A DNA stretch of 64,000 bases from an uncultured Phycicoccus sp. (lineage in GTDB: Bacteria > Actinomycetota > Actinomycetes > Actinomycetales > Dermatophilaceae). The notes beneath the pieces were generated by a model. The model had not been told where the DNA came from. It did no database searches and worked only from the letters and a program-made list of their open reading frames with translations. Of the stretch, positions 2,327 through 26,993 are shown one piece after another; position 1 is the stretch's first letter; every line of letters begins with the position of its first letter. Where the stretch lies: positions 62,001 through 126,000 of the forward strand of contig NZ_CANLZR010000007.1 of assembly GCF_947495705.1 (NCBI RefSeq), read 5' to 3'. The translations under genes and the position numbers were made by a program.

Positions 2327-2332
2327 CCTGCG

Positions 2333-2338
2333 AGACTA
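2333..2338 (-). promoter_or_regulatory. -10-like hexamer TAGTCT for a leaderless penicillin acylase mRNA
   Basis: On the minus strand TAGTCT is followed by 6 nt and then the GTG start, with no Shine-Dalgarno between. The spacing matches transcription starting at or next to the start codon. Inferred from spacing only. Confidence 0.45.
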
Positions 2339-2373
2339 GGTCACCACCACCGACGACACGAGGACGGTCCCTT

Positions 2374-3924: not shown

Positions 3925-3950
3925 GCGTCCCGCCCGGCGTTCAGGGTCCG
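3915..3950 (+). terminator. Hairpin terminator of the antiporter gene
   Basis: CGGACCCTGA and TCAGGGTCCG form a perfect 10-bp stem around a 16-nt loop; the left arm includes the stop codon. There is no T tract, as is usual in high-GC actinobacteria. Confidence 0.6.
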
Positions 3951-4004
3951 CTCAGGCCCGTCCCTCATGGCCGGGATGGCTGAGCCACCGGCAGTCTCGT
4001 GCCC

Positions 4005-5719: not shown

Positions 5720-5850
5720 CACGGCCGCGGACCGGCGCGTTCTCGGCGGCCCCGATGCTCCCTTATCCTGGGAGCCGACCGCGCTGCCGTGGGGCCCGCA
5801 CCGACCGTGCCGGGACCGGCGGCGCCCCGACGCCGTCCGAGGAGGACACC

Positions 5851-6207
5851 GTGCCGACGTACGCCTACGCGTGCACCGAGTGCGACCACCGTTTCGAGGT
5901 CGTCCAGTCGTTCAGCGACGACACCCTCACCACCTGCCCCGAGTGCGCCGGCCGGCTCCGCAAGCTCTTCAACGCCGTGGGCATCGTGTTCAAGGGCGGC
6001 GGCTTCTACCGCACCGACTCGCGGGCCGGCGCCGGCAGCGGGTCGTCGGGGTCGGGCGCGTCCAGCGCGTCCACGAGCGGCGGGTCCGGGTCCACCGGCG
6101 GCTCGTCCGCGGGCAGCAACGGGTCGTCCGGCTCGTCGTCGGGCACGGCGGCCGCGTCGTCCACAGGGTCCTCGTCGGGCGGGTCCTCGTCCACAGCCTC
6201 GTCCTGA
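5851..6207 (+). CDS. FmdB-family zinc ribbon protein with Ser/Gly-rich tail
   Basis: Small protein (118 residues). The first 45 residues form an FmdB-type zinc ribbon: PTYAYACTECDHRFE with a CxxC pair near residues 9-12 and CPECAG with the second pair near 31-34, followed by the conserved LRKLFNAVGIVFKGGGFYRTD. The last about 60 residues are nearly all Ser, Gly, Ala and Thr and look disordered. The GTG start has an excellent ribosome site, GAGGAGGA, ending 4 nt upstream, and TATCCT near 5764 is a likely -10. FmdB proteins were named as putative regulatory proteins; the molecular role is not settled. Confidence 0.88.
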   Translation: MPTYAYACTECDHRFEVVQSFSDDTLTTCPECAGRLRKLFNAVGIVFKGGGFYRTDSRAGAGSGSSGSGASSASTSGGSGSTGGSSAGSNGSSGSSSGTAAASSTGSSSGGSSSTASS

Positions 6208-6233
6208 CCGACTCGCCGGGCCGAGACGCCACC

Positions 6234-6239
6234 TAGCGT
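6234..6239 (+). promoter_or_regulatory. -10-like hexamer TAGCGT for a leaderless SAF-protein mRNA
   Basis: TAGCGT is followed by 7 nt and the ATG at 6247, with no ribosome site between. Inference from spacing. Confidence 0.4.
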
Positions 6240-6246
6240 CGGGCCC

Positions 6247-6915
6247 ATGGCGCCCCTCCCCCGTCCCTTCCCGGGCCTCACCGGCCCGGGGCGCCGGGCG
6301 CGGTGGCGCCGAGGCCTGTTGCGTCGGGCAGCGGCCGCCTGCTGCGTCGCCGGGGCTGCGTTCGTCGGGTTGCACACGGTTCGCCCGCCGCCCCCGCCCG
6401 GCGTCACGGTCCTCGTCGCAGCCCGGGCCGTGGCCCCCGGGGCGGTGCTCGAGCCGGGCGACGTCGCCGTCCGTTCGGTGCCCCTGCTCGCCCGGCAGCC
6501 CGGCGCGGTGACCACCACCGCGGGCGCCGTCGGGCGTCGCGTCGGCGGCCCGCTCCTGCCGGGCGAGGCGGTCACCTCGTCCCGGCTCGTCCCGCGCACG
6601 GTGGCCGAAGGTCTCGCGGCGAGCGAGGTGGCCCTCCACGTCCTGCTCGCCGACCCCGCCGGGGTCGACCTCCTCGTCCCGGGCCATCGCGTCACGGTCT
6701 ACCCCACGGGTGGGGGCGAAGCCCTCGCCACCGGCGCGCGGGTCCTTGCCGTCGACGCGCAGGTCGTCGATGCCACGACGGCCCTCGGCGGGGGCCCGCC
6801 GGCCGGGCGGGGGGCGGTCCTCGCGCTCCCCGGTGCCGCGGCCCGCGCGGTCCTCGGCGGGCACGGTGGCCTCGAGGGTCCACCCGTCGTCAACGTCGCG
6901 GTCATGGCGCCGTAA
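6247..6915 (+). CDS. SAF-domain protein, CpaB/RcpC-like
   Basis: Protein of 222 residues with a basic N-terminus, one transmembrane segment (about residues 27-45, AAAACCVAGAAFVGLH) and an extracytoplasmic SAF domain (about 52-115: GVTVLVAARAVAPGAVLEPGDV...GPLLPGEAVTSSRLV). The SAF-plus-tail layout resembles CpaB/RcpC, which assist Flp/Tad pilus assembly, but no other tad or flp gene is in the window. In actinobacteria such single SAF genes often sit next to FmdB and mscL, as here, so the pilus link is only by family. Start ATG follows a leaderless-type -10. Confidence 0.75.
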   Translation: MAPLPRPFPGLTGPGRRARWRRGLLRRAAAACCVAGAAFVGLHTVRPPPPPGVTVLVAARAVAPGAVLEPGDVAVRSVPLLARQPGAVTTTAGAVGRRVGGPLLPGEAVTSSRLVPRTVAEGLAASEVALHVLLADPAGVDLLVPGHRVTVYPTGGGEALATGARVLAVDAQVVDATTALGGGPPAGRGAVLALPGAAARAVLGGHGGLEGPPVVNVAVMAP

Positions 6916-13060: not shown

Positions 13061-13132
13061 GCCCTCGTAGCTCAGGGGAAGAGCACTTCTCTCCTAAAGA
13101 AGGTGTCGCAGGTTCGAATCCTGCCGGGGGCA
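13061..13132 (+). tRNA. tRNA-Arg (anticodon CCT)
   Basis: Folds as a full cloverleaf. Acceptor GCCCTCG pairs with CGGGGGC (one T-G pair), D stem GCTC/GAGC, anticodon stem CTTCT/AGAAG with loop CTCCTAA (anticodon CCT), 5-nt variable loop GTGTC, and T arm GCAGG-TTCGAAT-CCTGC. The discriminator is A and CCA is not encoded. It reads AGG codons. The following 7 kb has atypical codon use, so the 3' end is a candidate integration site. Confidence 0.95.
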
Positions 13133-13310
13133 CCTCGTGAAACCCGCGCTCTGACCAGACCTGCCGGCGGACTGGACCGGGACGCCTGACCGCGGGTCAC
13201 TCCTCCCACCCCCAGCTGCCGCCTCGACAGCGTCAACCTTCGGCACGGTTGGCGTCTGTTCCCAGATGACGGCAGATCCGCGACGGCGCGGGCCGGGAAG
13301 GAGTTCCCCG

Positions 13311-13976
13311 ATGAAGCTCACCTCCGCGCGGACGGCCCTCGTCGTGCTCGTCGCTGCTATGGGTCAGCTGGTGTCATCCCCGGCGTCGGCCGGTCCACCC
13401 CCCGGCCCGGTGGACGAGTCGTTGCTCGTTCCGGCCCTCAACCCGGCCTTGGCGCCATGGTCGTGCAAGGCCAAACAGACCGGGCCGGTGTGCACTGGCG
13501 CGCTGGACGCCGTGAACGAGTGGCAGCCGTTCGACTTCTCCTGCGACGCCCCGGTGTACGCCCGGAGCACCTTCCACCGCAGGGCAACGCGGTACTACGA
13601 CTGGGACTACAGGAACTACGACAGGTACGTGCACCAGAACGACCTCGATGAGCTCAGCACGTCCCCGACCGGTCCTGCAACGGCGTTGATCAGTGTGCGG
13701 ACCCGGTTCCATGAGCCGTTCGAAGTCCCCGGCGACCTGTCGACGATGACCGTCGTCACCGAAGGCGTCCCGCTGGACATCCGGCCCGTGCGGGGAGCCC
13801 CGGTGTTGCGGGTGGTCGGGACGCTCGTCGAACCACCCGGAGAGGTCGGCACCTTCAGCGGTCACGTGACCGACCACGGTGTGACCACACGCTACGAAGA
13901 CGCGCCTCTGGACACGGTGGTCTCGGAGGAGACCTTCGTCGAGGCTGTGTGCACGGCCGTCCAGGAACTGCCGTGA
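13311..13976 (+). CDS. Secreted protein of unknown function, paralog of the 15708-16451 product
   Basis: 221 residues with a clear Sec signal peptide (MKLTSARTALVVLVAAMGQLVSSPASA). The mature part has four Cys and the frame PALNP...WSC...C.G...FSCD...VYA in its first third, and ends ETFVEAVCTAVQELP. The same frame occurs in the protein at 15708-16451, so the two are diverged paralogs. I recognise no enzyme motif. ATG 13311 has AAGGAG 8 nt upstream; the longer ORF-track start is a shadow. Codons such as AAA, CCA, GTT and GCT are more frequent than in flanking genes. It may be a target or sensor of the sigma factor next door; that is inference. Confidence 0.75.
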   Translation: MKLTSARTALVVLVAAMGQLVSSPASAGPPPGPVDESLLVPALNPALAPWSCKAKQTGPVCTGALDAVNEWQPFDFSCDAPVYARSTFHRRATRYYDWDYRNYDRYVHQNDLDELSTSPTGPATALISVRTRFHEPFEVPGDLSTMTVVTEGVPLDIRPVRGAPVLRVVGTLVEPPGEVGTFSGHVTDHGVTTRYEDAPLDTVVSEETFVEAVCTAVQELP

Positions 13977-14005
13977 AGTGGGTTCCGGACCGCTCAGGCC
14001 CGCAC

Positions 14006-14011
14006 TAGCGT
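14006..14011 (+). promoter_or_regulatory. -10-like hexamer TAGCGT for the ECF sigma operon
   Basis: Lies 19 nt before ATG 14031, giving a leader of about 13 nt that includes the GGGAG ribosome site. It rules against the upstream GTG as start. Confidence 0.4.
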
Positions 14012-14030
14012 GGTTCGACTGGGAGTGGCG

Positions 14031-14528
14031 ATGCGCGCAGAGGACCGGCCGGACTACGAGTGGGTGTTCAGCGCCTCGTTCAGCTCGATCACTCGCACCG
14101 TCTTCCTCATCGTGCACGATCGGGAGGCCGCCGAGGAGATCACCCAGGAAGCCTTCGTCAAACTGCTTCAATACTGGGACGCCGTGGCTGGATACGACCA
14201 CCCCCAGGCATGGGTGAGGAAGGTCGCCACCCGGATGGCCGTCCGTCATGCGGCACGCGAACGCCGACGCCCCACACTGGAGGCGCGGGCTCACAGGCCG
14301 ACGGCGGTGGTCCCCTCCGACCCGGCACTCGACGTGATCGAGGCCGTCCGCGATCTGGCGCCAATGCAGCGCGCTGCCGTTGTCCTCCACTACTTCGAGG
14401 ACCGCCCAGTGGGTGAGATCGCCGGCGCCCTTCAGGTATCGGAGTCCACCGTCAAACAGCATCTGTATCGGGCCCGTGCCCACCTGGCCCGCACGCTCGG
14501 CGAGGCGGTGACCGATGATGTCCGTTGA
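14031..14528 (+). CDS. RNA polymerase sigma factor, ECF (sigma-70 family)
   Basis: 165-residue extracytoplasmic-function sigma factor of the SigE-like group. Region 2 lies about residues 12-80 (FSSITRTVFLIVHDREAAEEITQEAFVKLLQYWD...PQAWVRKVATRMAVRHARERRR). Region 4 lies about 103-155 (LAPMQRAAVVLHYFEDRPVGEIAGALQVSESTVKQHLYRARAHL). ATG 14031 is preferred over GTG 14010: GGGAG sits 5 nt upstream and GTG 14010 falls inside a TAGCGT -10 hexamer (14006-14011). The 3' end overlaps the next gene by 14 nt, so it is coupled to its membrane partner, the usual arrangement of ECF sigma and anti-sigma. Confidence 0.9.
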   Translation: MRAEDRPDYEWVFSASFSSITRTVFLIVHDREAAEEITQEAFVKLLQYWDAVAGYDHPQAWVRKVATRMAVRHAARERRRPTLEARAHRPTAVVPSDPALDVIEAVRDLAPMQRAAVVLHYFEDRPVGEIAGALQVSESTVKQHLYRARAHLARTLGEAVTDDVR

Positions 14529-15477
14529 CGATCGGCTTCGCGCCGCCCTCACTGCGTACGCAGCGTGTCTGCCGGAACCAGAGGTCGAGCTGCGGTTCCA
14601 TCGAGTTCTGGCTCTCCACCGGCGCAGGCGTGCCCTCCGACTGGTCAGCGCCGCTGCGGGGCTTGTTGCAGCCTGCGCCGTCGTGAGCATCTCCTTGGGC
14701 TGGCCCGCGCGGCCGGCGGCACTGTGGCCGTCGGGCGACATCACCCCCACGTCCCGCGTAGAGGGGGCCTACGCCGGGTTGGCCAGAGCACTGCCGGACA
14801 TTCCTCGGTCCGCCGGGCGGTGGGGCCTGGACTTCGGCGAGGACGGCCGGATGACGGCGTCCGCGCCGACCGGTTCGGGTCGTAGCCCCGAGCCCGCGGG
14901 GTGGCTGCGCGGGGACGCGGTCACCACCGAGCTCTTCGCCGAGGACGCGTGTCGCGACACCGCGCCGGGCACCTACACGGTGGCGCGACTCGCCGACCGC
15001 GTGGTCCTCGAGGTCGCCGAGGACCGCTGCGCAGCGCGGATGAGCCTCTTGACGGCCACGACCTGGGTCTCGACGCTCGCCACGTCGTGGAACGGCCCCA
15101 GAATCCCCGACAGTCGCTGGGTCCGTGACATCGACGTCGCGGAGCTGCGCAAGCAGGGTTACACCTTGACGCCAGACGCCCTCCGTGCCAACTTCCTCGA
15201 CGACGGTCACGGCCGGTTCCACCTCGAGTTCACGGGAACAAAGTTCTACGTCTTCGTCGAGGACGAGGATGGCTCGTTGGTCCTCGGCGACCAAGGAGAT
15301 GTCTCCTACGACGCACTCGGCAGGTGGGTCCAGAACCTCAGCCTTGCGGTGGAATGGCGACTCGATGGCGATGCGCTCGTCACCGAGAACGTGGATCCGG
15401 TGCACGGAGTCAGGCTGAACCCAGCGACCGCGGAGGAACGGTTCGCCCTTGAAGGCACGTGGCACCGAGCCGGCTGA
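14515..15477 (+). CDS. Single-pass membrane protein, likely anti-sigma factor partner of the ECF sigma
   Basis: 320 residues. N-terminal cytoplasmic part of about 43 residues (MMSVDDRLRAALTAYAACLPEPEVE...RRRRALR), one transmembrane segment (about 44-63, LVSAAAGLVAACAVVSISLG), then a large outer part. The outer part seems to hold two related segments, each with a Gly-rich strand start (GRWGLDFGEDGRMTASAP; GRFHLEFTGTKFYVFVEDEDG) and ending in acidic strands, suggesting two lipocalin-like barrels. No zinc anti-sigma HxxxCxxC motif is seen. The position, overlapping the sigma gene by 14 nt, and the topology argue for an anti-sigma role. ATG 14515 is favoured over 14518 by GAGG at good distance. 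Confidence 0.65.
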   Translation: MMSVDDRLRAALTAYAACLPEPEVELRFHRVLALHRRRRALRLVSAAAGLVAACAVVSISLGWPARPAALWPSGDITPTSRVEGAYAGLARALPDIPRSAGRWGLDFGEDGRMTASAPTGSGRSPEPAGWLRGDAVTTELFAEDACRDTAPGTYTVARLADRVVLEVAEDRCAARMSLLTATTWVSTLATSWNGPRIPDSRWVRDIDVAELRKQGYTLTPDALRANFLDDGHGRFHLEFTGTKFYVFVEDEDGSLVLGDQGDVSYDALGRWVQNLSLAVEWRLDGDALVTENVDPVHGVRLNPATAEERFALEGTWHRAG

Positions 15478-15622
15478 TGACCCAGTGCCTCGGGAAGCCG
15501 AGCCGGAACTCCGTCCCCGCCGCCCCAGTGGCGCCTGGGGGGTCATCGGATCGTCGGCATTCCCGGACGGCGGCTGCCGTTCCATCCGGAGCAGCGGACC
15601 GGCCGTGACGCAGCGCCATGTG

Positions 15623-15656
15623 CGTTGAGCGGACGTTGAGCGATCGCCACCACGCT
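15623..15656 (+). promoter_or_regulatory. Candidate SARP box: CGTTGAGCG repeated at 11-bp spacing, 8 bp before a -10-like CACGCT
   Basis: CGTTGAGCG occurs at 15623-15631 and again at 15634-15642, exactly one helical turn apart. CACGCT, one base from the TACGCT used elsewhere here, begins 8 bp after the second copy. This is the geometry known for SARP-controlled promoters. It stands in front of the secreted-protein gene at 15708, whose neighbour is a SARP gene. Confidence 0.45.
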
Positions 15657-15707
15657 GCGTGCACAGACCGGCTCACACAGGGAGCCGAATGCGCTCAGGA
15701 GGCTGAC

Positions 15708-16451
15708 ATGCCCGCACCAACCCTCGCAGTCCTTGCACAGCGCGCCCACCTCTCGAACCCCCGCGTCGCGGCGCTCGTCGCAGGGAGCGCGTCCCTCGCG
15801 CTCCTTCTCACCGCGGCACCCACCTCCGCCGCCGGGAGTGCGGCCGCCGCGCCCCCAGCCGGATCGGCCGGTCAGCCGCTGCGCTCGCTCTCCGCGGGCG
15901 CCGGCAACGAGCGCGAGGTCGACCCGCTCAGCCTGACGCCTGCCCTGAACCCCACCTTCACATGGTCGTGCGCCCGCACCGGAGCGGGGATCACCTGCCA
16001 CGGCGAACGCCGGACCAGCTACGGGCCGGAGCCGGTGGGGTTCGACTGCGACGGGCTGGAGGTCTACGTCACCGGTCGCGGGGAGGACACATCCACTCGT
16101 TGGCACACCGCCGAGGGGCTCGCAACGCGCACCATCACGCAGCGGTCGTTCCCGGAGGACCGGATGACCTTGGCCCCCGACACCTCAGGTCCGGCCGTCG
16201 TCTCGCGGCAGCACTGGACGCAGCACTACCGCTACGGCACGCCCGGTGATGTCACGACGCGGGTCCTCGTGGAGACCGGCCAGGTGCTCATGGTGCACGG
16301 GACGGGCGCCGAGGGGAAGGTGTTCCAGTTGACGGGGCGCACCGAGTTCGCGCCCGGGATGGACTTCGAGTCAGTCGTGCAGTCGAGCGGACGGGACGAC
16401 TTCGCGGCCGGCCGCGACTTCGTCGCCGAGGTCTGCCGCGCGCTGACGTGA
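15708..16451 (+). CDS. Secreted protein of unknown function, paralog of the 13311-13976 product
   Basis: 247 residues; a long N-region then a signal peptide core (ALVAGSASLALLLTAAPTSAAGS, about 23-45) and an Ala/Gly/Pro-rich spacer. The mature part has PALNPTFTWSC...ITCHGE...GFDCDGLEVYV, mirrored in the 13311 gene product, and ends FVAEVCRALT. Four conserved Cys suggest two disulfides. ATG 15708 has CAGGAGG 5 nt upstream. The gene is preceded by tandem direct repeats with SARP-box spacing, and its stop codon touches an alternative GTG of the SARP fusion gene. Function unknown; I infer it belongs to the same response as the regulator downstream. Confidence 0.75.
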   Translation: MPAPTLAVLAQRAHLSNPRVAALVAGSASLALLLTAAPTSAAGSAAAAPPAGSAGQPLRSLSAGAGNEREVDPLSLTPALNPTFTWSCARTGAGITCHGERRTSYGPEPVGFDCDGLEVYVTGRGEDTSTRWHTAEGLATRTITQRSFPEDRMTLAPDTSGPAVVSRQHWTQHYRYGTPGDVTTRVLVETGQVLMVHGTGAEGKVFQLTGRTEFAPGMDFESVVQSSGRDDFAAGRDFVAEVCRALT

Positions 16452-16554
16452 CCAGCGGGGGACCCGGGTCGCTGATGCCCATGGGTCGCGCACCGTCCAC
16501 CTTCGAACGTGGCACCGCGGCTGCGGCACGAGTGCGCGAAGGATGCAGTCGGGC

Positions 16555-16560
16555 GTACAT
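16555..16560 (+). promoter_or_regulatory. -10-like hexamer TACATT for the SARP fusion gene
   Basis: TACATT is followed by 6 nt and GTG 16568, the leaderless spacing repeated in this window. It supports 16568 as the start rather than GTG 16448. Confidence 0.45.
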
Positions 16561-16567
16561 TCCGAGC

Positions 16568-19500
16568 GTGCGACGGATCTTCGCACGCCTGTACGGCGCG
16601 GTGTCGATAGAGGTGGACGGCAGGGCACTCGACCTCGGTCCACCGCGACAGCGCGCGCTCCTCGCGCTCCTGATTGCGCAGGCCGGTCGCGTGGTGCCCA
16701 GTGAGCACCTGCTCGCGGCACTGTGGGGCGAGGTCCCCCCGCGGACGGCTGCGCACGCCGTCCAGGTCTACGTGTCCGATCTCAGACGCCGGCTCTGCGA
16801 GGCGTGCGGCCAGCCGCTCGTGCTGACCCAACGGCCGGGATACCTGCTCGACCTGTCACGCGACGAGGTCGACCTCCTGGTCGTGGAGGACTCCCTCCGC
16901 CACGCGCTGTCCTTGGAGGCGGACGACTCTCCCGGCGCCGGCCTCGCCCGGCTTCGTCCACTGCTGGCGCTCATGGACGCGGACCCGCTCGCCGACGTCA
17001 GGGAGGAAGCGGTCCGTCGCGAGTTGGCGCCTCGGCTCGCCCGGGTGCGGACCGAGGCGTGGATGCTCGCCGCCCGCTGCGCCCTTCGCTCCGGCGACCT
17101 CGACACGGCGTGCTCGGTGGCCGAACGGTGCCTGGCCGAGAACCCGTACGACGAGGAAGCCCATGCCGTGTTCGTGGAGGCCACCTACCGGCAAGGTCGC
17201 CCCGCCGAGGCTTTGCGGTCCCTTGCCGGCGTTCGCCGGCTGCTCGCCGACGAGCTCGGCGTCGATCCCTCGCCGCGGCTCGTGGGACTCCACGAGCGCA
17301 TCCTGGTCCACGACCCGTCCCTCCGAGTCCCGGCCGACCGCCAGGCCCTGCGGAACCCGTACAAGGGCCTTCGCCCCTTCGCTGAGTCCGACGCGCACGA
17401 CTTCTTCGGCCGGCGTGATCTTGCACGGCAGCTCGTGGACCGACTCGCCCAGGGCGCCCGCCTGGTCATCGTCGTCGGCCCGTCGGGAGGGGGCAAGTCG
17501 AGCCTGCTGGCGGCCGGGGTCATCCCCCTGCTGAGGCGAACCCGCCTCAACGGCCTTGACCGGAGCGCTGTCGTGATCCCCCCGCGGACGATGACCACTG
17601 AGGCCGCACTGCGAGCGGCAGTCGTCAGGGAGCGAAAGAAAACCCGACCGGTCGTCCTCGTTCTGGACCAGCTGGAGGACATCCTCGAGGGGGGTGACTG
17701 CGACGGCGTGCTCTCCTGGCTCGCACAGGAAGTGCGAGACGGCGGGCCGCTCCGCGTGGTGGCCGCGCTCCGCGCCGATCGGTACGACCGACCACTGCAG
17801 CACCGCGCGTTCGCCGAGGTGTTCATCGACGGCGTCGTCAACCTCGTCCCCATGACTCCAGCCGAGCTCGAGGAGGCAGTGCGTTCACCGGCCACCGGGG
17901 TGGGCCGCGACGTGGAGCCGGCACTGCTCGCGGAGCTCATCGGCGACACGGTGGCGCAGCCCGCAGTGCTCCCGCTCCTCCAGTTCGCCCTGACCGACCT
18001 CTTCGATCGGGAGACCGGCTCAACGCTGACTCTCGCCACCCACCGCCAGCTCGGTGGCGTCCGCGCCGCCCTGGCCCGACGAGCCGATGGTCTGCGCGAC
18101 GAGCTGGGTCCGGAGCGTGAGCAGGTTCTCGAACGGGTCCTCCTGCGTCTGACCGACGTCGACGACACCGGACGAGCACACCGCAGGGTCGTCCGCATCG
18201 AAGAGGTGGCGGCTGCCTTCCCGGACGCCTCCGAGGTTGCGGCGGTGCTCGGGCGCCTCAACGACCTGCGCCTCATCACCTACGACCGGGACGCCGCGGG
18301 CGGAGGCGTCATCGAGCTGTCCCACGACGCCCTCCTGCACGCGTGGCCCTGGTTCCGCGAGCTCATCGACCGGCATCGCACGGACATCCGGCGGCATCGG
18401 GCGTTCACCACCGCCCTGGAGGCATGGGAGTCAACCGGGCGTGATCCCGACTACCTCCTCACTGAGGCACGCCTCGGCGAGGTGGAGTCCTGGGAAGCGA
18501 CAGGCGCGATCGCGCTGACGCCCCGAGAACGGGCCTTCCTCGAGGCGGGGCAGGAGGCCGCCGCACGGCGAGCGTCGTACGAGCGGGAGCAGGAACGACG
18601 TCGCCTCACACTGGAACGTCGGTCCCGTAGCCGTCTGGTCCTTCTCGGCACCACCGGCATCGCCCTGGTCGTGGCGCTCACGGCAGCGGCGCTCCTCGCA
18701 GGCAGGGAGCCACCCCATGTCGCCCTCGTCCTCCACGACGCCGGCAGCATCGAGCTGGCCATCGAACGAGGCGTCGACGAGGTCGCTCGCACGACGACCC
18801 TGACGCGCGAGAAACTCGTCGTCGACCGTGGCGCCACGCGAGAGCTCCTCCGGCTCACCGCCGATGGATCGGTCGACCTCGTTCTCAGCGCGGCCCTCGA
18901 TGTCGACTACGAGGGCCTCGCCCGTCAGCGGGCCGGAACCCATTTCATGCTCGTCGAACGAGAGGCGACTGGTCCGAACGTGACGGTGCTCGCCTTCGCG
19001 GATCAGGAGCCGGCATTCCTCGCCGGGGCGGCGGCTGCCCTGACCACTCGTACCGGGCGTGTCGCGTTCATCGGCGGAGTCGACTTCGCGGTGCTCCATC
19101 GCTTCGAGGCGGGGTTCGTGGCTGGGGTCGCTGCCGTCGACCCCCTCGTGAGCGTCGACGTCCGGTACCTCACCGCACCGCCTGACTATGCGGGATTCGT
19201 TGACCCGGTCCACTCGAGCACCGCGACACGTCGAGCGCTCGCCGACGGAGCCGACGTCGTGTACCTGGCCGCCGGTGCAGCCCAGAGTGGCGGCCTCCAG
19301 GCACTGGTCGACCTCGCGGAGAGGTCCGACCGTCCGCTGTGGGCGATCGGCGCCGATGAGGACGCGTACTACGACACGCGCTGGCAGACGACGCCGGGAG
19401 CCCGCGACCACGTCCTCGCCTCCACCGTCAAGCGCTTCGACCAGGCCACGCGCAGTGCTCTCGAGGCCTACCTGGGGCCGGGGCTGGGTTCGGGGCAGCG

Positions 19501-19696
19501 GGTGTCGGACCTGGCGAACGGAGAACTGGCGTTCGCGACGACCGGCGGCCACCTGGACCACGTGGCGTCGAGGATCGACGAGCTGCGGCGTGCCGTCGTC
19601 AGTGGCCGACTGGTCGTACCGTGCGTTCCTTCCCGCCTGACCGGCGCCGCGGTCGCGGCCGCAGCCGCCGGTCCGAAGTGCCCGGAGGCTCGATGA
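16568..19696 (+). CDS. SARP/BTAD transcriptional regulator fused to nSTAND1 ATPase, a transmembrane helix and a BMP-type ligand-binding domain
   Basis: 1,042-residue fusion. Residues about 1-95: OmpR-type winged helix of SARP regulators (LDLGPPRQRALLALLIAQAGRVV...AVQVYVSDLRRRL). About 100-245: BTAD helical repeats. About 263-680: nSTAND1 NTPase (NPYKGLRPFAESDAHDFFGR, Walker A GPSGGGKSS near 304, Walker B VVLVLDQLEDIL). About 690-712: one transmembrane helix after an Arg-rich stretch, so the N-terminus should be inside. About 716-1042: BMP/PnrA-like substrate-binding fold (FADQEPAFLAGAAAALTTRTGRVAFIGGVDFAVLHRFEAGFVAG). No lipobox and no transporter genes nearby. Predicted to sense an outside ligand and act on DNA directly. 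GTG 16448 (4-nt overlap with the previous stop) is an alternative start, but homology starts after 16568. Confidence 0.85.
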   Translation: MRRIFARLYGAVSIEVDGRALDLGPPRQRALLALLIAQAGRVVPSEHLLAALWGEVPPRTAAHAVQVYVSDLRRRLCEACGQPLVLTQRPGYLLDLSRDEVDLLVVEDSLRHALSLEADDSPGAGLARLRPLLALMDADPLADVREEAVRRELAPRLARVRTEAWMLAARCALRSGDLDTACSVAERCLAENPYDEEAHAVFVEATYRQGRPAEALRSLAGVRRLLADELGVDPSPRLVGLHERILVHDPSLRVPADRQALRNPYKGLRPFAESDAHDFFGRRDLARQLVDRLAQGARLVIVVGPSGGGKSSLLAAGVIPLLRRTRLNGLDRSAVVIPPRTMTTEAALRAAVVRERKKTRPVVLVLDQLEDILEGGDCDGVLSWLAQEVRDGGPLRVVAALRADRYDRPLQHRAFAEVFIDGVVNLVPMTPAELEEAVRSPATGVGRDVEPALLAELIGDTVAQPAVLPLLQFALTDLFDRETGSTLTLATHRQLGGVRAALARRADGLRDELGPEREQVLERVLLRLTDVDDTGRAHRRVVRIEEVAAAFPDASEVAAVLGRLNDLRLITYDRDAAGGGVIELSHDALLHAWPWFRELIDRHRTDIRRHRAFTTALEAWESTGRDPDYLLTEARLGEVESWEATGAIALTPRERAFLEAGQEAAARRASYEREQERRRLTLERRSRSRLVLLGTTGIALVVALTAAALLAGREPPHVALVLHDAGSIELAIERGVDEVARTTTLTREKLVVDRGATRELLRLTADGSVDLVLSAALDVDYEGLARQRAGTHFMLVEREATGPNVTVLAFADQEPAFLAGAAAALTTRTGRVAFIGGVDFAVLHRFEAGFVAGVAAVDPLVSVDVRYLTAPPDYAGFVDPVHSSTATRRALADGADVVYLAAGAAQSGGLQALVDLAERSDRPLWAIGADEDAYYDTRWQTTPGARDHVLASTVKRFDQATRSALEAYLGPGLGSGQRVSDLANGELAFATTGGHLDHVASRIDELRRAVVSGRLVVPCVPSRLTGAAVAAAAAGPKCPEAR

Positions 19697-19814
19697 GGCC
19701 GGGGTGGATGGTGGCGACGGCGTCGAGGGCACGACGCGCGTCGTCTGCATCGAGGCGCTCCTCGGACGACGTCATGGCCGCGCCGTACGCCCAGGCGGAT
19801 CGACGAGTCCGGCC

Positions 19815-20282
19815 GTGACGGTCACCTTGCGCGAGATCACCGCGGCCAATCTCGGCCCGGTCCTCGAGCTGCGCACCACCCCTGAGCAGGAACGCTTCGT
19901 CAGCACCGTGGCCGATTCGATTGCCGAGGCCGCCGCGAACCCGCATGGGAACCCCTGGAACCGCGCCGTGTACGCCGACGAGGAGCCGGTGGGCTTCGTC
20001 ATGCTGAGCTGGGATGTGGAGCCGCAGCCACCACACATCAACGGGCCCTGGTTCCTGTGGAAGCTCCTCATCGACGTCCGCTACCAGCGCCAAGGCTACG
20101 GGCGAGAGGTGCTGCGCCTCGTCGTGGCGCTGGTGCGCGAGCACGGGGCGACCGAGCTCCTCACCAGCTACGTGCCTGGAAGAGGTGGTCCGGCCGGCTT
20201 CTACGCCCGGCACGGCTTCGTCCCCCGTGGCGACCGCGATCCCGATGGTGAGATCATCCTGCGCCTGGACCTGAGGGCATGA
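19815..20282 (+). CDS. GNAT family N-acetyltransferase
   Basis: 155-residue acetyl-CoA-dependent acyltransferase. Motif A, LLIDVRYQRQGYGREVLRLVV (Q/RxxGxG/A loop), lies about residues 82-102; the C-terminal GGPAGFYARHGFVPRGDRD is the usual GNAT beta-bulge and last strand. The middle WNRAVYADEEPVGFVMLSWD is typical of spermidine/aminoglycoside-type members, but the acceptor is unknown. GTG 19815 starts the conserved TLREITAAN strand; the longer ORF-track start adds a meaningless leader. It follows the SARP gene by 118 bp on the same strand and still shows the looser codon use. Confidence 0.85.
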   Translation: MTVTLREITAANLGPVLELRTTPEQERFVSTVADSIAEAAANPHGNPWNRAVYADEEPVGFVMLSWDVEPQPPHINGPWFLWKLLIDVRYQRQGYGREVLRLVVALVREHGATELLTSYVPGRGGPAGFYARHGFVPRGDRDPDGEIILRLDLRA

Positions 20283-20405
20283 TGGGCGCCGGAGCGCGAT
20301 GCTGCCGGAGTGCCTCCATCGACGGCAGACGGTTTCGATCCGGACCCCGCTGGGCAGTATGAGTGCAGGTCCGGCCCGCGTGGCGACGAGGAAGGTGGCC
20401 CACCG

Positions 20406-21101
20406 ATGGCGCAGCCTGCTCCCTGCGGGGCCCATGTCGTCCTCGTTCCCGGTCTGGGTCTCGACGCCCGCGCGTGGGCCCCCGTTTTTGAACGCCTGCC
20501 GGACGCCACCGTCCTCCCCCTGCCGTCCATGGGAGGCCGCGCCTCACCCGGGACCGACCTGGCCGTCGACGCCCAGAGCCGGCGGCTCGGCGCGTGCCTG
20601 CCCACAGGTGCGCCCCTCGTCCTCGTGGGCCATTCCGCGAGCTGCCCGGTCGTGGTCGACACGGCCTGCCGCGTCCCCGAGGTCGCGGGGCTCGTCCTCG
20701 TCGCCCCCGTGACCGACACCAGGGCACGCACCTGGCCCCGGATGGTCACCCAATGGCTGCGGACGGCCCCGCACGAGCGGCTCTGGGAGGTCCCGGTCCT
20801 CACCCCGCAGTACCGGGCGACCGGCCTCTCGTCGATGTCCCGCGGGATGAACCAGGTGCGGCGGTACCGCACCGATGTCGGCCTCTCGGCCGTGACCGCT
20901 CCCACCCACGTGATCCGGGGGAGCCGGGACCGCATCGCCTCCGAGGACTGGTGTGCCCTGCTGGCCCGACGCCCGCCGGTCGACCTGGTGACGGTCCCGG
21001 ATGCCGCGCACATGGTGCCGCTCACCCACCCCCTGGTCGTCGTCGAGTCGGTCGAGCGGCTCCGCGACGGCGCCGCGGACGACCGCCATCCTGGCCCGTG
21101 A
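20406..21101 (+). CDS. Alpha/beta hydrolase
   Basis: 231-residue single-domain hydrolase. The oxyanion strand is VVLVPGLGLDARAW, the nucleophile elbow GHSAS puts Ser near residue 76, the acid is probably Asp in RGSRDRI, and the base is His in DAAHMVPLTHP. The cap is very short, as in esterase/haloperoxidase-like members. ATG 20406 follows GAGGAAGG at 13 nt; the preceding 120 bp contain nothing recognisable. Substrate unknown. Confidence 0.85.
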   Translation: MAQPAPCGAHVVLVPGLGLDARAWAPVFERLPDATVLPLPSMGGRASPGTDLAVDAQSRRLGACLPTGAPLVLVGHSASCPVVVDTACRVPEVAGLVLVAPVTDTRARTWPRMVTQWLRTAPHERLWEVPVLTPQYRATGLSSMSRGMNQVRRYRTDVGLSAVTAPTHVIRGSRDRIASEDWCALLARRPPVDLVTVPDAAHMVPLTHPLVVVESVERLRDGAADDRHPGP

Positions 21102-21288
21102 CGTCGAGCAGACCACTCGTGCGTCATCGCCGGCGCACCCCGCGGGGCCCGGCCGGCCGGACCGGGGGCTCCGGGCGCTGAAGCGCCTGGTCGTCGGACC
21201 CCTCGAGAAGGCACGCCGGGTTCGGCTCGCCGACATCCGATCTGTCCGAAACGGCTCGATCGGGTCCACGGGACGGTATACCGGACGA

Positions 21289-22275
21289 GTGGACTGGTAC
21301 CTCGACCGCGTCGAGCACGTCAGCGAGCTGCGGCATGAGGTCGTGCGGCACCTCGCTCGGCATGCGGTGCCCGGCAGCGACGAGGCCGTGGCCGACGCCG
21401 AGCTCGTGGTCTCGGAAGCCGTAGGAAACTCCTTCCGGCACACCGGAGGTCCGACCTGGGTATCGTTGTCCTGGACCTCAGAGGTGCCCGTGCTCAGGGT
21501 CTACGACATCGGTCCGGGATTCGAGGTCCCGCAGGGCGAGCTCGCGCTCGCGCTCGCCCCGGACCCCGACCAGGAGTCCGGCCGGGGGCTGCTCATCATG
21601 CGGATGCTCGCTCCCGAGGTCAGCGCCTCCCTGCGCAAGCACGCAGGGGCGGTGTTGTCGGTCCAGCTGCCCGTGCGGCGCCGCCCGGCCGTGAGCATCG
21701 ACCCGCCCAGACGCCGTACCGGCGCCCTCCCCCGCCTCGACGAGGCCCGGGCCGAGGGCGCCTTCGGGAAGGAGTCGTTCCTGCGCGCCCTCGTGGTCCA
21801 GCTGTCGCAGGCGGTCGAGGACCAGCACGGTCCGGATGCCGCCGAGGTGGCGGTCGCCCAGGTCGGCACGGACGTGGGCAGCCAGATGGAGATGGAGTTC
21901 CGCCAGGCCGAGCAGGTCGTGGGCCGGATGTCCCCCGAGCAGCTCGGGCGCTGCTACGTCCGCCTGAAGCATGCCATCGACGGCGGCTTCCGGGTCGTCG
22001 AGGCCACCCCCGAGCGCATCGTCCTCGAGAACACGCGCTGCCCCTTCGGCGACACCGTCCGACGCGCCCCCGCACTGTGCCGGATGACGTCGAGCGTGTT
22101 CGGCGGCATCGCGGCCCGCAACAGCGACAGCGGTGCGTCCGTACTGCTGGAAGAGCGCATCGCCGTCGGCGACCCGGGCTGCCGCGTCGTCGTCTACCTC
22201 GGGGACGTCCCCGCCGAGGTCGAGCCGTTCGCGCACCGCTACGCGCCGGCGGTCGACACCGACCCCGGGCTCTGA
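21289..22275 (+). CDS. ATP-binding (RsbW/HATPase-type) protein with C-terminal methanogen-output-like domain
   Basis: 328 residues. N-terminal half is an anti-sigma-kinase-like ATPase: N box ELVVSEAVGNSFRHTGG (about 47-63), G1 VYDIGPGF, G2 ESGRGLLIMRML. Residues about 150-320 resemble the methanogen output domain: VEDQHGPDAAEVAVAQVGTDVGSQMEMEFRQ...LENTRCPFGDTVRRAPALCRMTSSVFGGIAA, with Cys residues that could bind metal. Such proteins usually feed a partner-switch or two-component output, but no STAS antagonist or kinase is next to it. TATACC lies 6 nt before GTG 21289, so it may be leaderless; the 187 bp upstream hold nothing else. Confidence 0.75.
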   Translation: MDWYLDRVEHVSELRHEVVRHLARHAVPGSDEAVADAELVVSEAVGNSFRHTGGPTWVSLSWTSEVPVLRVYDIGPGFEVPQGELALALAPDPDQESGRGLLIMRMLAPEVSASLRKHAGAVLSVQLPVRRRPAVSIDPPRRRTGALPRLDEARAEGAFGKESFLRALVVQLSQAVEDQHGPDAAEVAVAQVGTDVGSQMEMEFRQAEQVVGRMSPEQLGRCYVRLKHAIDGGFRVVEATPERIVLENTRCPFGDTVRRAPALCRMTSSVFGGIAARNSDSGASVLLEERIAVGDPGCRVVVYLGDVPAEVEPFAHRYAPAVDTDPGL

Positions 22276-22314: not shown

Positions 22315-22788
22315 TCAGTCCCCCAGCTGCACGGTCTCGTCGGCCGGGGCCACCGTGTCGACATCGGCAGGGCACGCGGCATCCTCGATCTCGGTCTCCC
22401 CCGTGCCGCCGGCGATGCGGTACCGCAGGCAGAGCCGGGCCGAGAAGCCCTCGTACGACAGGCCGCCCCCCGCCTCCGCGCCGGCGGTGACCGCGCCCTG
22501 GACCACGACCCCGTCACCGCCGGTCGTCGCGGTGAGCGGCAGGTCCGGCAGGGCCTCGCGGACGGCCTCCAGCTGTGCGTCCCCGGTGCTGCCACGGGCG
22601 GCGGCCTGCAGGTCCGTCCGCAGCGCCTCGGCCTTGGCCCGCACGGCCGTCACGGCGTCCTCCCGCGCCGCCGACCCGGGGCCGGAGCACCCGCCCAGCC
22701 CGAGCCCCACGAGGATGGCTGCGGCGGCCCCGAGCCGGGTGACCGTGCCCGGTGGGCGGTCACGGCCCCGCCGGGGCGTCCGCCGCAC
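22315..22788 (-). CDS. Small lipoprotein of unknown function
   Basis: 157 residues beginning with a basic region (MRRTPRRGRDRPPGTVTR) and a lipoprotein signal LGAAAAILVGLGLGGCS; Cys at about residue 36 is the lipidation site. The mature part is short, acidic and contains YEGFSARLCLRYRIAGG...EDAACPAD, with two Cys that could form a disulfide. No domain recognised. GTG 22788 shares one base with the stop codon of the upstream SGNH gene, so it is probably translated from the same message. Confidence 0.7.
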   Translation of the reverse strand: MRRTPRRGRDRPPGTVTRLGAAAAILVGLGLGGCSGPGSAAREDAVTAVRAKAEALRTDLQAAARGSTGDAQLEAVREALPDLPLTATTGGDGVVVQGAVTAGAEAGGGLSYEGFSARLCLRYRIAGGTGETEIEDAACPADVDTVAPADETVQLGD

Positions 22789-25700
22789 TAGAGCCCCATC
22801 TGGCGCAGCGTCGTGTTCATCGACGTCGCATAGTGGGCGTACCCGTCGACCTTCGGGTGGAACGACTGCTGCGACGGCTGCGCACCCTCGCCCGAGGAGG
22901 GCAGCGTGGCCTCGCCGGCCGTCCGGTTCCACGAGGCGACGATGCCGTGGATCGTCTCGGGGTTCCCGCACACGGCCTCACCCGCGAACGGCGCCGACGG
23001 GTTCGAGAACCACACGTAGGTCGTCCCCGCCGCCGCGTTGGCCCGGTCGACGGCCTCCTGCATGTGGACCAGGAGCAGCTCGCCCATCTCGTTGAGCCAC
23101 GGCGCCTCGCCGGTACCGACCCCCGGCACGCACTGACCCTCCCCCTCGAAGAGCGGCGGGTAGCCCATGAGGAGGACCTTGGCGTTCGGCGCCTTCTTGC
23201 GGACCTCGGCGAGCACCGTCACGATCGAGTCCTCCACCTTGCCGCGGATCAGCTCGGGGATCTCCTCGCCCGCGGGCACCGAGCTGCCCGGCAGCTGGGC
23301 GTCCTGACACTTCTTGAGTCCGGCGAAGATGATGCACTCGGCGATGACGTCACCGAACCGCGAGTCGTTGCCGCCGATGGAGAACGTCACGAGCGTCGTG
23401 TCGACGTCGAGGAACCCCTTGTCCAGCTGGGAGAGCTCACCGTACTGCCCGCGGCCGGTCTGGCCCCAGGAGTTGGCCGGCTTCGTCGCCCCGACGGTGT
23501 GGAACGGCAGCAGCTGCTCGGTCTGGGCGCCGGAGCAGGCGATGAGGTGGTGCTCCACCTGCGAGCTGCGGGCGTCGCTGAGCGAGCCGATGGTGCCCGT
23601 GGTCCCGGCGATGGTCGCGCGGCGCGACCAGGTCTGCGTCGAGCGGTGACACGCGTTGCGCGCCTCCGGGTCGTTGCCGTTGTTGTCGCTCTCGTTGTAG
23701 TAGTTCACCCCTCCGTCGGCCGACCCGCCCTCCCCGGAGGAGTACGAGTCACCCATCGACACCACGATGTTGGACGGCTTCGCCGACAGCGGCTGGAAGG
23801 CCACCGCGTCCCACGCGATGTCCTCGTTCTCGATCGGTGAGCTGCCGTCGTCGCCGTCGTAGGTGTTGCTCACCAGGCGCACCTTCGGGGTGCCGTTGAA
23901 CGGGAACGACCCGAGCGAGACCCACTTGTTGTTCATGACCCGCTGGAGCACGACCCGGGTCCGGGTGCCGTTGCCGAGGTCCACCTCGTACCGGGCCTGC
24001 TGGGTGTGGGCGCCGTGGTCGGGCATGTGGACGAAGACCCGGGCCCACTGCGTGAGCGAGCGGTTGAGGGTCCAGGTGCCGGTGATGTCCATCGAGCCGC
24101 CGCGCAGGTCGGCGGTGCGGGTGTGGGTGTACCAGAAGTGCCCGCTGAACCCGGCGCCCAGTTGGTGCAGGTCGGTCTTGGACGGGTACTCGCCGTTGCC
24201 GTCCGCCGCGAAGGTGAGCGAGAACGTGCCCTGGTTGGTGTGCGGGCGCGAGCACCCTGGTCTCACGATCGGCGCCGAGTCGGCCTGGTCGTCGATGACC
24301 AGCGCCCCGGCCGGGAGCCCACCGAGGGCGCAGTTCGGCGGGTACGCCGTGCCGTCCTCCTGGTAGGCGTAGCCCTCGCTGAAGCGCAGCAGCGCGTTGC
24401 CGCAGCTGTAGCTGCAGTCCGACTTCCACGTGCTCGGGATGTGTGACCAGCACCTGAGGTCGTACTGGCCCGCGGCGTTCTTGTGCGCGCAGGGGCCGGC
24501 CGGCTCACCGACGACGGCGGGGTCGTTCGGGGTGTACTTGGCCCCGGGCTCGCAGTCGTTGGCGCTCGTGCAGAACTGGGTGACCGGCGGCTTGACGGCG
24601 GCCCGGTTGGCGGGGCCCGTCGTCGCGTCGCCGTTCCACCAGGCGGCCCGGTAGCCGGCCACCAGCGTCCCGGGGGACTCGAGGATCTCGACCGGGTGAC
24701 CGGCCCAGCCCATGACCTTCTCGGGGTAGGGCCACTGCTGGGGGTTGCGGGCGTCCTCGTAGGTGTACTCGAGGAAGGGTGCGCGGTTGGCGGGGTACTT
24801 CGGGTTGACCGGGTTGTTCAGCCAGCCGACCCCCCAGGCGCCGTTGTAGCTCGAGGCCGAGGACTGCGGGTAGAAGCCCGAGTTGTACGCCCACACCGCG
24901 TAGAACCAGTTCTCGATCTTGTTGACGTCCCCGTTGTTGATCGTCAGGCCCGCGTTGCGGGTCTGGTTCCACTTGTCCTGGAGGATCCGCAGGCCACCGG
25001 CGACGTTGGCGGCGAAGTCCAGCGCGGCCGCGCGCTGGCTGTCGTACGGCAGCGCCGTCTCACCGGGCTTGGTGCGCCCGGCGAGGCGCATGCCGTCGGT
25101 GATCTGGGTGACCCCGTAGCCGCAGTCGGCCTGCGTGAAGTCGATGTCCCAGTCGTTGGCCGAGGACGCGTCGTAGATCTCGAGGCCGTAGTAGTTGCCG
25201 ATCAGGGGGTTGCCCGTCACGCCGGGGACGACGCTGCCGGGCGCCATCCACATGTTCGACTCCTGGGCGATGACGCCGAGGAAGACCTGCGAGGGCACGT
25301 AACCGCCCCCGGACAGCGCCCGCGAGGGAAAGAGCCCCTGCGGGGTGTACGCCGGCATGCCGAGGTTCTTCCAGTTCGACGGGCGGGAGGTGGTCAGCAC
25401 GCCGCGCACCGCCTGGTTGACGGCCCACTCGACCTGGCGCGGCTTGGGCTGCATCGTCTGGTTGCGGACGTCGTTGCGCGCCACCGAGCAGTACCGCTCG
25501 TCCTCGACCGGGTTCGTCGGGGAGCCGGCCGCCGCCACCCGGGCGTCATCGCCGGCCGCAGGCCGCGCGCGCAGGCTCGGGTGCACGTCGGCCGCCGCCT
25601 CCGTCGTCCCCGACGACGGGGTGACGACGAAGGCCGGGTGCGCGCCGGTCGCCCGGACCGTGGTGCGGATCTCCACCGGTCGCTGCAGCTGCGTCGGGTC

Positions 25701-26822
25701 GTCCCCCGTCCCGCTGGGGCTCAGCCCGGAGGCTCGGACCGACTCGATGGCCAGCGCGCCCCGCGTCGAGACGGTGGTGCGTGAGGTGCTGCCCTCGAGG
25801 GCGGTGACCGTGGGCGGCAGCGCCCGCTGCACGGCCACCGGTCCGGTGAGGAACACCTCGCCTCCCGGGGTCCGGGTGATCCCCACCTTGTCGAGCGGGC
25901 CGCTGGCCAGCGTCTCCGCGGTCACCCGGCGGCCGGCGAGGGCAGCGGCCGGCACCCGGTGGTACGTCGCGGTGGCATCGGCGCGGTCGAGGAAGACGAC
26001 GCCGCCGTCCGCGTCGGGCGTGAGCCGGAACGGCGCGTTCTCGCCGATGGCCACGAGGCGGCGGGTCCCGGTGGTGTCAAGGGTGACCAGGGCGTTGGCG
26101 TCGGCGGCGACGATCCGCTCCCCCACCGGGACGGCCGAGGTCAGCTCGCCCGGCACCGTGATGGGCTTGCGGACGGTGCCCTTCGTCGCGTCGATCCGCA
26201 CCACGCGGGTCTGGCCGCCGTCGTCGCCCTCGCGGAACTGGGTGACCACGGCATCGTCGCCGGTGCCGCAGGCAGGCGAGAAGTAGGCGAGGGTGCTCGT
26301 CAGCGGGAGCTTGGTCACCGCTCCGTCGCGGACCCGGACGACCGCCACGAACCCGCCCCGGTCGAACAGCTCGGCCTTGTTCGTCGCGACCCGCGGGGCG
26401 TAGGCGACGACGACCGAGCGGCCGTCCCCGGTCATGCACGCGTTGCCGATCCACGCGTCCGCCTCGACCCCGGGCTCCGCCAGCGTCGCCAGGGTGCGCC
26501 AGGCGTACCCGTCCTCGGCGCGAGCCGCCAGGACGTGCAGCCCCTTGCCGTCGCCGGACGTCGTCCACGCCGTGTCCTCGGAGCGGCGGTGACCCTTGCC
26601 CAGCACCGTGTCGCGCTGGTCCGCGGGCACCTCGACCCGGCCTTCCGTGGGCACCGGACGAGGACGCTCGGCCACCACCGCCCCCCGAGGAGCTGTGCGT
26701 TCTCGCGGGTCGGCCGCGGCAGGGGTGGCCGATGCGGCTCCCTGACCGGCCACCACGCTCGAGAGCAGGAGAGATGCCGCAGCGGCGGCGAGCACGAGAC
26801 GGGGATGCGGGGCGGCGCGCAT
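22788..26822 (-). CDS. Secreted multi-module protein: lytic-transglycosylase-like, golvesin-like and SGNH/GDSL hydrolase
   Basis: 1,344 residues. Signal peptide MRAAPHPRLVLAAAAASLLLSSVVA; a strand-rich, propeller-like region (about 60-430); a lysozyme/transglycosylase-like region (VFLGVIAQESNMWMAPG near 511, CGYGVTQITDGM near 568, NWFYAVWAYNSG near 640). A golvesin-C-terminal-like beta domain follows (about 860-1015, FWYTHTRTADLRGGSMDITGTWTLN). Last comes an SGNH hydrolase with block I MGDSYSSGEGG near 1022, GGND near 1149 and the Asp-His end block SFHPKVDGYAHYA near 1320. Catalytic Ser, Asp and His all appear present. Probably acts on cell wall or extracellular polymer. Start ATG 26822 is the signal-peptide Met. 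Confidence 0.8.
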   Translation of the reverse strand: MRAAPHPRLVLAAAAASLLLSSVVAGQGAASATPAAADPRERTAPRGAVVAERPRPVPTEGRVEVPADQRDTVLGKGHRRSEDTAWTTSGDGKGLHVLAARAEDGYAWRTLATLAEPGVEADAWIGNACMTGDGRSVVVAYAPRVATNKAELFDRGGFVAVVRVRDGAVTKLPLTSTLAYFSPACGTGDDAVVTQFREGDDGGQTRVVRIDATKGTVRKPITVPGELTSAVPVGERIVAADANALVTLDTTGTRRLVAIGENAPFRLTPDADGGVVFLDRADATATYHRVPAAALAGRRVTAETLASGPLDKVGITRTPGGEVFLTGPVAVQRALPPTVTALEGSTSRTTVSTRGALAIESVRASGLSPSGTGDDPTQLQRPVEIRTTVRATGAHPAFVVTPSSGTTEAAADVHPSLRARPAAGDDARVAAAGSPTNPVEDERYCSVARNDVRNQTMQPKPRQVEWAVNQAVRGVLTTSRPSNWKNLGMPAYTPQGLFPSRALSGGGYVPSQVFLGVIAQESNMWMAPGSVVPGVTGNPLIGNYYGLEIYDASSANDWDIDFTQADCGYGVTQITDGMRLAGRTKPGETALPYDSQRAAALDFAANVAGGLRILQDKWNQTRNAGLTINNGDVNKIENWFYAVWAYNSGFYPQSSASSYNGAWGVGWLNNPVNPKYPANRAPFLEYTYEDARNPQQWPYPEKVMGWAGHPVEILESPGTLVAGYRAAWWNGDATTGPANRAAVKPPVTQFCTSANDCEPGAKYTPNDPAVVGEPAGPCAHKNAAGQYDLRCWSHIPSTWKSDCSYSCGNALLRFSEGYAYQEDGTAYPPNCALGGLPAGALVIDDQADSAPIVRPGCSRPHTNQGTFSLTFAADGNGEYPSKTDLHQLGAGFSGHFWYTHTRTADLRGGSMDITGTWTLNRSLTQWARVFVHMPDHGAHTQQARYEVDLGNGTRTRVVLQRVMNNKWVSLGSFPFNGTPKVRLVSNTYDGDDGSSPIENEDIAWDAVAFQPLSAKPSNIVVSMGDSYSSGEGGSADGGVNYYNESDNNGNDPEARNACHRSTQTWSRRATIAGTTGTIGSLSDARSSQVEHHLIACSGAQTEQLLPFHTVGATKPANSWGQTGRGQYGELSQLDKGFLDVDTTLVTFSIGGNDSRFGDVIAECIIFAGLKKCQDAQLPGSSVPAGEEIPELIRGKVEDSIVTVLAEVRKKAPNAKVLLMGYPPLFEGEGQCVPGVGTGEAPWLNEMGELLLVHMQEAVDRANAAAGTTYVWFSNPSAPFAGEAVCGNPETIHGIVASWNRTAGEATLPSSGEGAQPSQQSFHPKVDGYAHYATSMNTTLRQMGL

Positions 26823-26993
26823 GGCTGACTCTTTCGGTCGGGGCTCGGCGGGTACCGAGGCGGCCAGCGTCGCGAGGTGGGTCCGCCCGGTGGAAGGCTC
26901 GCTGCCGCACCGGCATAAGCCCGGCGGCTCCGGCATAGCCCGCGCCGGCCTGCGGCTCGGCGGGGCTGTCTCCCCTCCCCCTCTCCGTTCAGG

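Follow-up and report, generated by a model that had tools for sequence, protein, structure and literature searches.

A predicted membrane-tethered SARP-nSTAND1 regulator with a BMP-like domain in the sensor position

Introduction

To our knowledge, bacterial STAND regulators with a known inducer (e.g., MalT) sense that inducer inside the cell. In AfsR, the NOD and TPR portions inhibit the SARP unit and ATP relieves this inhibition, and SARP dimers contact RNA polymerase as well as direct repeats of the -35 region (PMC10936776). Transmembrane transcription regulators, broadly defined as single proteins that combine a DNA-binding domain with at least one transmembrane region, are common and have been widely surveyed (PMC10269533). 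A regulatory role is also on record for a member of the BMP family: Med of Bacillus subtilis acts through ComK to promote competence (as cited in PMC12892991).

The protein considered here joins elements of these systems in one chain. It is encoded in the window, i.e., the whole stretch of 64,000 nucleotides that we analysed (contig NZ_CANLZR010000007.1 of an uncultured Phycicoccus sp., positions 62,001 to 126,000 of the forward strand). It carries a DNA-binding domain and a transmembrane region, and so belongs among the transmembrane transcription regulators in the broad sense. Every part of it is known singly; a search of the open literature, with subscription journals and preprints outside its scope, returned no description of a STAND or SARP protein with a transporter-type binding domain outside the cell.

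Results

We searched the protein against Pfam profiles, counting only matches above the gathering cut-off, and recovered all four families that the first-pass annotation of this DNA had expected (PF00486, PF03704, PF20703 and PF02608). Together with the hydropathy profile, these matches bear out its description of a four-part chain composed of a SARP unit, an nSTAND1 NTPase, a transmembrane helix and a BMP domain (Table 1). Because an OmpR-type DNA-binding domain is followed by a BTAD, both above the cut-off, the N-terminal part has the domain make-up of a SARP; residues 10-296 of the protein match AfsR (PDB 8jke, 8k60), and the SARP part aligns with solved chains of EmbR as well. The nSTAND1 match scores 285 bits against a cut-off of 27.1, and the NTPase is intact at both Walker motifs: G304, S306, G307, G309, K310, S311 and S312 of Walker A, and D367, Q368 and E370 of Walker B, are invariant in an alignment of the seven fusion proteins described below. 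The Bmp match covers residues 782-982 (E 1.4e-24; 87 bits against a cut-off of 24.1); a single-sequence AlphaFold2 model of residues 669-1042 alone had a pLDDT of 35.

Table 1. Features of the locus, in window coordinates
Feature	Position	Strand	Details
tRNA-Arg(CCT)	13061..13134	+	left border of the apparently foreign block; conserved in congeners
Low-GC3 block carrying the gene	13160..21100		GC3 0.79-0.87 vs. about 0.95; mostly absent from 11 congeneric genomes
Alternative in-frame upstream GTG	16448	+	N-terminal extension of 40 aa if used
TACATT, putative -10-like box	16556..16561	+	6 nt 5' of GTG 16568; read from sequence
Whole gene, SARP-nSTAND1-TM-BMP	16568..19696	+	1042 aa plus stop; from translation and full-length relatives
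Trans_reg_C (PF00486), OmpR-type winged-helix DNA-binding domain	16643..16846	+	residues 26-93, E 2.5e-11
BTAD (PF03704)	16868..17305	+	residues 101-246, E 8.2e-21; aligns with AfsR and EmbR chains
nSTAND1 NTPase (PF20703)	17357..18451	+	residues 264-628, E 1.5e-84
Walker A, GPSGGGKSS	17477..17503	+	residues 304-312
Walker B, VLVLDQLE	17654..17677	+	residues 363-370
Arg-rich juxtamembrane stretch	18593..18637	+	residues 676-690, 7 K/R of 15
Predicted single transmembrane helix	18638..18694	+	residues 691-709, mean hydropathy 2.22
BMP/PnrA-like domain, predicted outside	18713..19633	+	residues about 716-1022; N-lobe ligand loop shortened

The reading frame runs uninterrupted to its stop codon, and because the same order of domains recurs in full-length proteins of other genomes, both chance and a sequencing frameshift, the artefact about which the first-pass annotation had cautioned, are ruled out as the source of this architecture. 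Of the two candidate start codons, the downstream GTG fits the point at which homology to the relatives roughly begins, and the -10-like box just before it would suit a leaderless start.

The family of fusions is small and rare in the searched genomes. Full-length relatives were absent from the 187 other genomes of the window's family and from the matches at E <= 1e-70 in a 395-genome sample of its class (two candidates scored per genome); family and class genomes hold instead SARP-nSTAND1 proteins with other tails, and BMP proteins as separate genes. In a sample of the phylum, five genomes from other families had full-length relatives, one of these genomes with two copies, and wider searches in the classes of those five genomes yielded no further ones. 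The six complete relatives (P0002-P0007) are 35-40% identical to the window protein, and each of them has all four Pfam domains above the cut-off. When the window protein was used to scan other collections, genome contigs gave just one unrelated partial match, viral sequences gave none, and the plasmid matches were all partial, with less than 80% of the protein covered in every case. BMP matches in long frames of four additional genomes (G924, G909, G609 and G776) were rejected as further fusions since no regulator part, whether SARP, STAND or another, accompanies them; the domain in G924 stands behind an apparent secreted multidomain chain, and the other three resemble ordinary lipoproteins whose long frames arise from read-through.

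When the seven fused BMP domains were placed in a tree together with 24 others, almost all of which are standalone, the fusions formed one clade (support 100/98). They do so again (support 98) in a tree of the SARP-nSTAND1 half that includes 43 homologues, and the inner branching is nearly equal in both trees, with P0004 beside P0006 and P0003 beside P0007. Because each half places the seven proteins in one clade, the halves have been inherited together since one fusion, a single ancient event after which sensor and effector were kept together. The window copy has the longest branch of the fusion clade (1.3 vs. 0.3-0.9) and, given this length, could be under relaxed constraint.

Judging from the homologues, the membrane-anchored SARP-nSTAND1 chassis is common in actinobacteria, and the BMP sensor is the rare variant of it. 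The nearest other proteins built on this chassis carry SBP_bac_1 (L051/L090), WD40, or a cyclase-type N-terminus together with WD40 (L053/L091), and the SARP-nSTAND1-TM-WD40 proteins are 37% identical to the window protein over residues 10-722. Since WD40 fills the sensor place in two paralogues of the window genome itself (L002 and L003) and SBP_bac_1 fills it in L090, this place is exchangeable. The L090 protein (genome G677, 320-4249, minus strand) has its SBP_bac_1 solute-binding domain behind SARP, nSTAND1 and helix, a second transporter-type sensor. The effector is exchanged in L091 (genome G686, 2039-6304, minus strand), where a guanylate-cyclase-type domain replaces the SARP ahead of nSTAND1-TM-WD40.

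The window copy looks horizontally acquired, because the rest of the family has none, its GC3 is low, and the block behind the tRNA-Arg gene is missing in congeners. Congeneric genomes are conserved up to about 13160 and thereafter match only in short scraps to about 20.4 kb; the genes from 13266 to 21101 share the low GC3 of the block (most neighbours outside are at about 0.95). No integrase was seen in the block, and nowhere in the window is the end of the tRNA repeated in att-like fashion. The neighbouring genes encode an ECF sigma factor, a protein with an N-terminal hydrophobic stretch, two small secreted-looking proteins, a GNAT acetyltransferase and a hydrolase. Genes for an ABC transporter (permease or ATPase) are absent among those at 11-27 kb, in agreement with the earlier view that the BMP domain has no partner transporter at this locus. 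Inspection of gene tables by eye revealed no neighbours shared with the relatives' loci, in keeping with a receptor that is self-contained, although two of these contigs comprise hardly anything except the gene. Direct repeats of the SARP type (11 or 22 bp) upstream of the gene or its neighbours did not exceed chance.

Several other genes of the window have features of their own. The small secreted-looking proteins at 13266-13976 and 15618-16451, both without a Pfam match, are alike by eye (each has 'PALNP...WSC' after the signal region) and flank the ECF sigma factor and the protein with the N-terminal hydrophobic stretch; for that at 15618-16451, weak relatives are confined to 3 further genomes of the family. 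At 21001-22275 (plus strand), a HATPase_c_2 domain of the anti-sigma kinase type is fused to a MetOD1 output domain, and at 22788-26936 (minus strand) lies a gene for a 1382-aa secreted-looking protein with Golvesin_C and GDSL-lipase matches.

The predicted helix has no acidic residue within it, and it and the Ala-rich C-terminus (1.48) are the only hydropathy peaks above 1.4. Lysines and arginines number seven in the 15 residues before it and one in the 15 after. A helix preceded by 5-7 K/R in 15 residues occurs in six of the seven family members, and the positive flank faces the SARP/NTPase half in every member that has the helix; the same Arg-flanked helix was seen in nearly all of some 46 chassis homologues, the window genome's own two WD40 paralogues among them. 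The hydropathy and the charge counts thus agree with the proposal of the first-pass annotation that one helix follows an Arg-rich stretch with its positive side toward the DNA-binding half, a pattern that recurs in the helix-bearing relatives. We infer from this pattern that the SARP and nSTAND1 parts are cytoplasmic and that the BMP-like domain lies outside.

The member without the helix is P0007 (L064, genome G795), from which coil and helix are cleanly missing and in which the BMP domain is kept from its first strand onward. It is a second copy in the genome of P0003, a single contig, and is 63% identical to P0003 in both halves. Either its BMP domain acts inside the cell or the copy is in decay, and it does not overturn the topology predicted for the other six proteins. 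Because of P0007, sensing outside the cell would be a property of most members and not obligatory for the family.

To compare binding pockets, we aligned the seven fused BMP domains with ten canonical BMP lipoproteins; equivalent positions were assigned with the help of published residue lists (PMC13325309, PMC12892991) and by counting from motif to motif, and not by superposition. The Bmp match of the window protein begins at profile position 76 of 301, the N-lobe being strongly divergent. The canonical GGxxDxSFN loop (GGRGDxSFN), which in the Borrelia Bmp proteins carries Asp19, Asp24, Phe27 and Asn28 (PMC13325309, PMC12892991), has been lost or strongly shortened in every one of the seven fusions, of which only P0005 retains a DxxF remnant, and none of the fused domains has a complete nucleoside pocket with the DxSFN loop. 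On the C-lobe side, the window protein keeps F846 (BmpA Phe151), F877 (Phe176), D930 (Asp225) and K955 (Lys242); across the fusions, the Phe176 place is always aromatic (7/7), and F/Y at Phe151, D/E at Asp225 and K/R at Lys242 occur in 6/7. The Asp98 position is lost in the window protein. Because the loop with Phe27 is lost, and because alanine at Phe27 or Phe176 abolishes binding in BmpA (PMC13325309), it is doubtful that the fused domains bind nucleosides in the classical way, although they retain a cleft whose wall is aromatic and charged. The fused domain is not an ABC-transporter lipoprotein, as it follows a transmembrane helix within a longer chain and has no signal peptide with lipobox. 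A canonical BMP lipoprotein is encoded elsewhere in the same genome (L074, contig C4, 7089-8180), and by eye the genes that follow it resemble a transporter and nucleoside-salvage group.

Discussion

Our best reading, towards which we lean slightly beyond even confidence, is that the protein is a single-chain, membrane-tethered STAND/SARP activator with an exchangeable extracytoplasmic sensor. Its ligand, ATP switching and DNA targets we infer, and the signal steps are modelled on AfsR. Outside the cell, a small molecule or a ligand-carrying protein would bind the BMP-like domain, a Venus-flytrap whose lobes would close upon capture and so shift the helix and coil. Autoinhibition of the nSTAND1 would then be released and ADP exchanged for ATP; the ATP-bound NTPase would assemble chains at the membrane, presenting SARP dimers to nearby promoters, where they would bind direct repeats at -35 and recruit RNA polymerase as AfsR does. 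Counting against this reading are the helix-less P0007, the loss of the N-lobe loop and the long branch of the window copy, and the lack of an operator repeat near its gene.

If the entire protein instead acted inside the cell, its hydrophobic helix would be buried or serve as a mere anchor, and the identical domain set of P0007, without coil and helix, would be readily accommodated. But the helix of the window protein is strongly hydrophobic, lacks acidic residues and shows a positive-inside bias, and it recurs in six members of the seven and in almost every chassis homologue, which together render cytosolic sensing quite improbable. We give still less credence, and indeed very little, to the possibility that the protein detects invaders as a STAND sensor of biological conflict and is not a metabolic regulator: although nSTAND1 is named in work on conflict systems (PMC8195603) and the gene sits in a variable block behind a tRNA gene, its effector is a transcription activator and not a toxin, the protein has no PADLOC match, and the neighbouring genes are ordinary.

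For the membrane-tethered activator, what the BMP domain might detect can be argued in several ways. The first-pass annotation envisaged a nucleoside-like ligand, and a true nucleoside sensor would allow external purine or pyrimidine nucleosides to govern a regulon for nucleoside salvage or for the response to lysed neighbours. Most of the C-lobe half of the pocket persists in the family, and the best PDB match of the BMP part is the lipoprotein 6ya3, named as the nucleoside-binding PnrA of pneumococcus (PMC12892991); however, the base-clamping loop of the N-lobe is gone or much reduced in all seven proteins, the window protein has lost the Asp98 position as well, and no salvage gene adjoins its gene, such that we consider a nucleoside sensor unlikely. 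Somewhat easier to entertain, if still short of probable, is a domain that binds no small ligand, serving as a scaffold that meets another protein or that holds the STAND switch closed, a task of the sensor repeats in other STANDs. The degenerate N-lobe would be explained, as would the retention of the BMP domain in the helix-less paralogue and the occupation of the sensor place elsewhere by WD40 propellers, which usually bind proteins; yet the C-lobe pocket residues are conserved across 30-40% identity, which would be unexpected for a cleft without a role. A further elaboration of the membrane-tethered activator, which we offer tentatively, is that these proteins form a family of one-piece receptors in which BMP, through loss of its nucleoside clamp, was refitted for a different external signal, so that it now drives direct gene activation through a STAND assembly bound to the membrane, one paralogue having lost its helix and with it placed the sensor inside the cell.

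If the membrane-tethered reading is true, the union of a STAND switch with a transporter-type binding domain through one helix would let an outside molecule act on transcription with no kinase, and a chassis that accepts different sensors (WD40, SBP_bac_1 or BMP) and different outputs (SARP or cyclase) would be a platform on which nature assembles receptors from modules. Three points are both rare and testable, namely the refitting of the BMP sensor, the exchange of domains in the sensor place and the existence of a natural twin that has no helix; P0003 and P0007, with and without the helix in one genome, provide a natural experiment in which the need for the membrane can be tested directly.

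Among known systems, Med of Bacillus subtilis is a separate protein without DNA-binding or STAND parts. What it has in common with the window protein is a regulatory role for a PnrA-like protein (as cited in PMC12892991). PnrA, BmpA and BmpD share the BMP fold family and the C-lobe half of the pocket, but they are lipid-anchored transporter parts with the DxSFN loop, whereas the domain in the window protein is fused to a regulator and has lost that loop (PMC13325309, PMC7093131). The ToxR/CadC-like plan put forward in the first-pass annotation proves too simple: a winged helix inside, one transmembrane helix and an outside sensor in a single chain are indeed the predicted arrangement, but ToxR and CadC have other sensors and neither a BTAD nor an NTPase switch (PMC10269533), both of which here separate the winged helix from the membrane and exclude the protein from that family. 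Closer parallels are found in AfsR and in the SARP-nSTAND1-TM-WD40 proteins. AfsR, a large SARP of Streptomyces, likewise continues from an OmpR-type domain and a BTAD into a STAND NTPase and then an arm, but its last part consists of TPRs and it has no described membrane helix (PMC10936776), whereas the window protein has a STAND of another class (nSTAND1), a transmembrane helix and a BMP domain predicted to lie outside. The SARP-nSTAND1-TM-WD40 proteins have the same chassis, including the Arg-rich stretch and the helix, and differ in that a WD40 propeller occupies the sensor place that is taken by BMP in the window protein.
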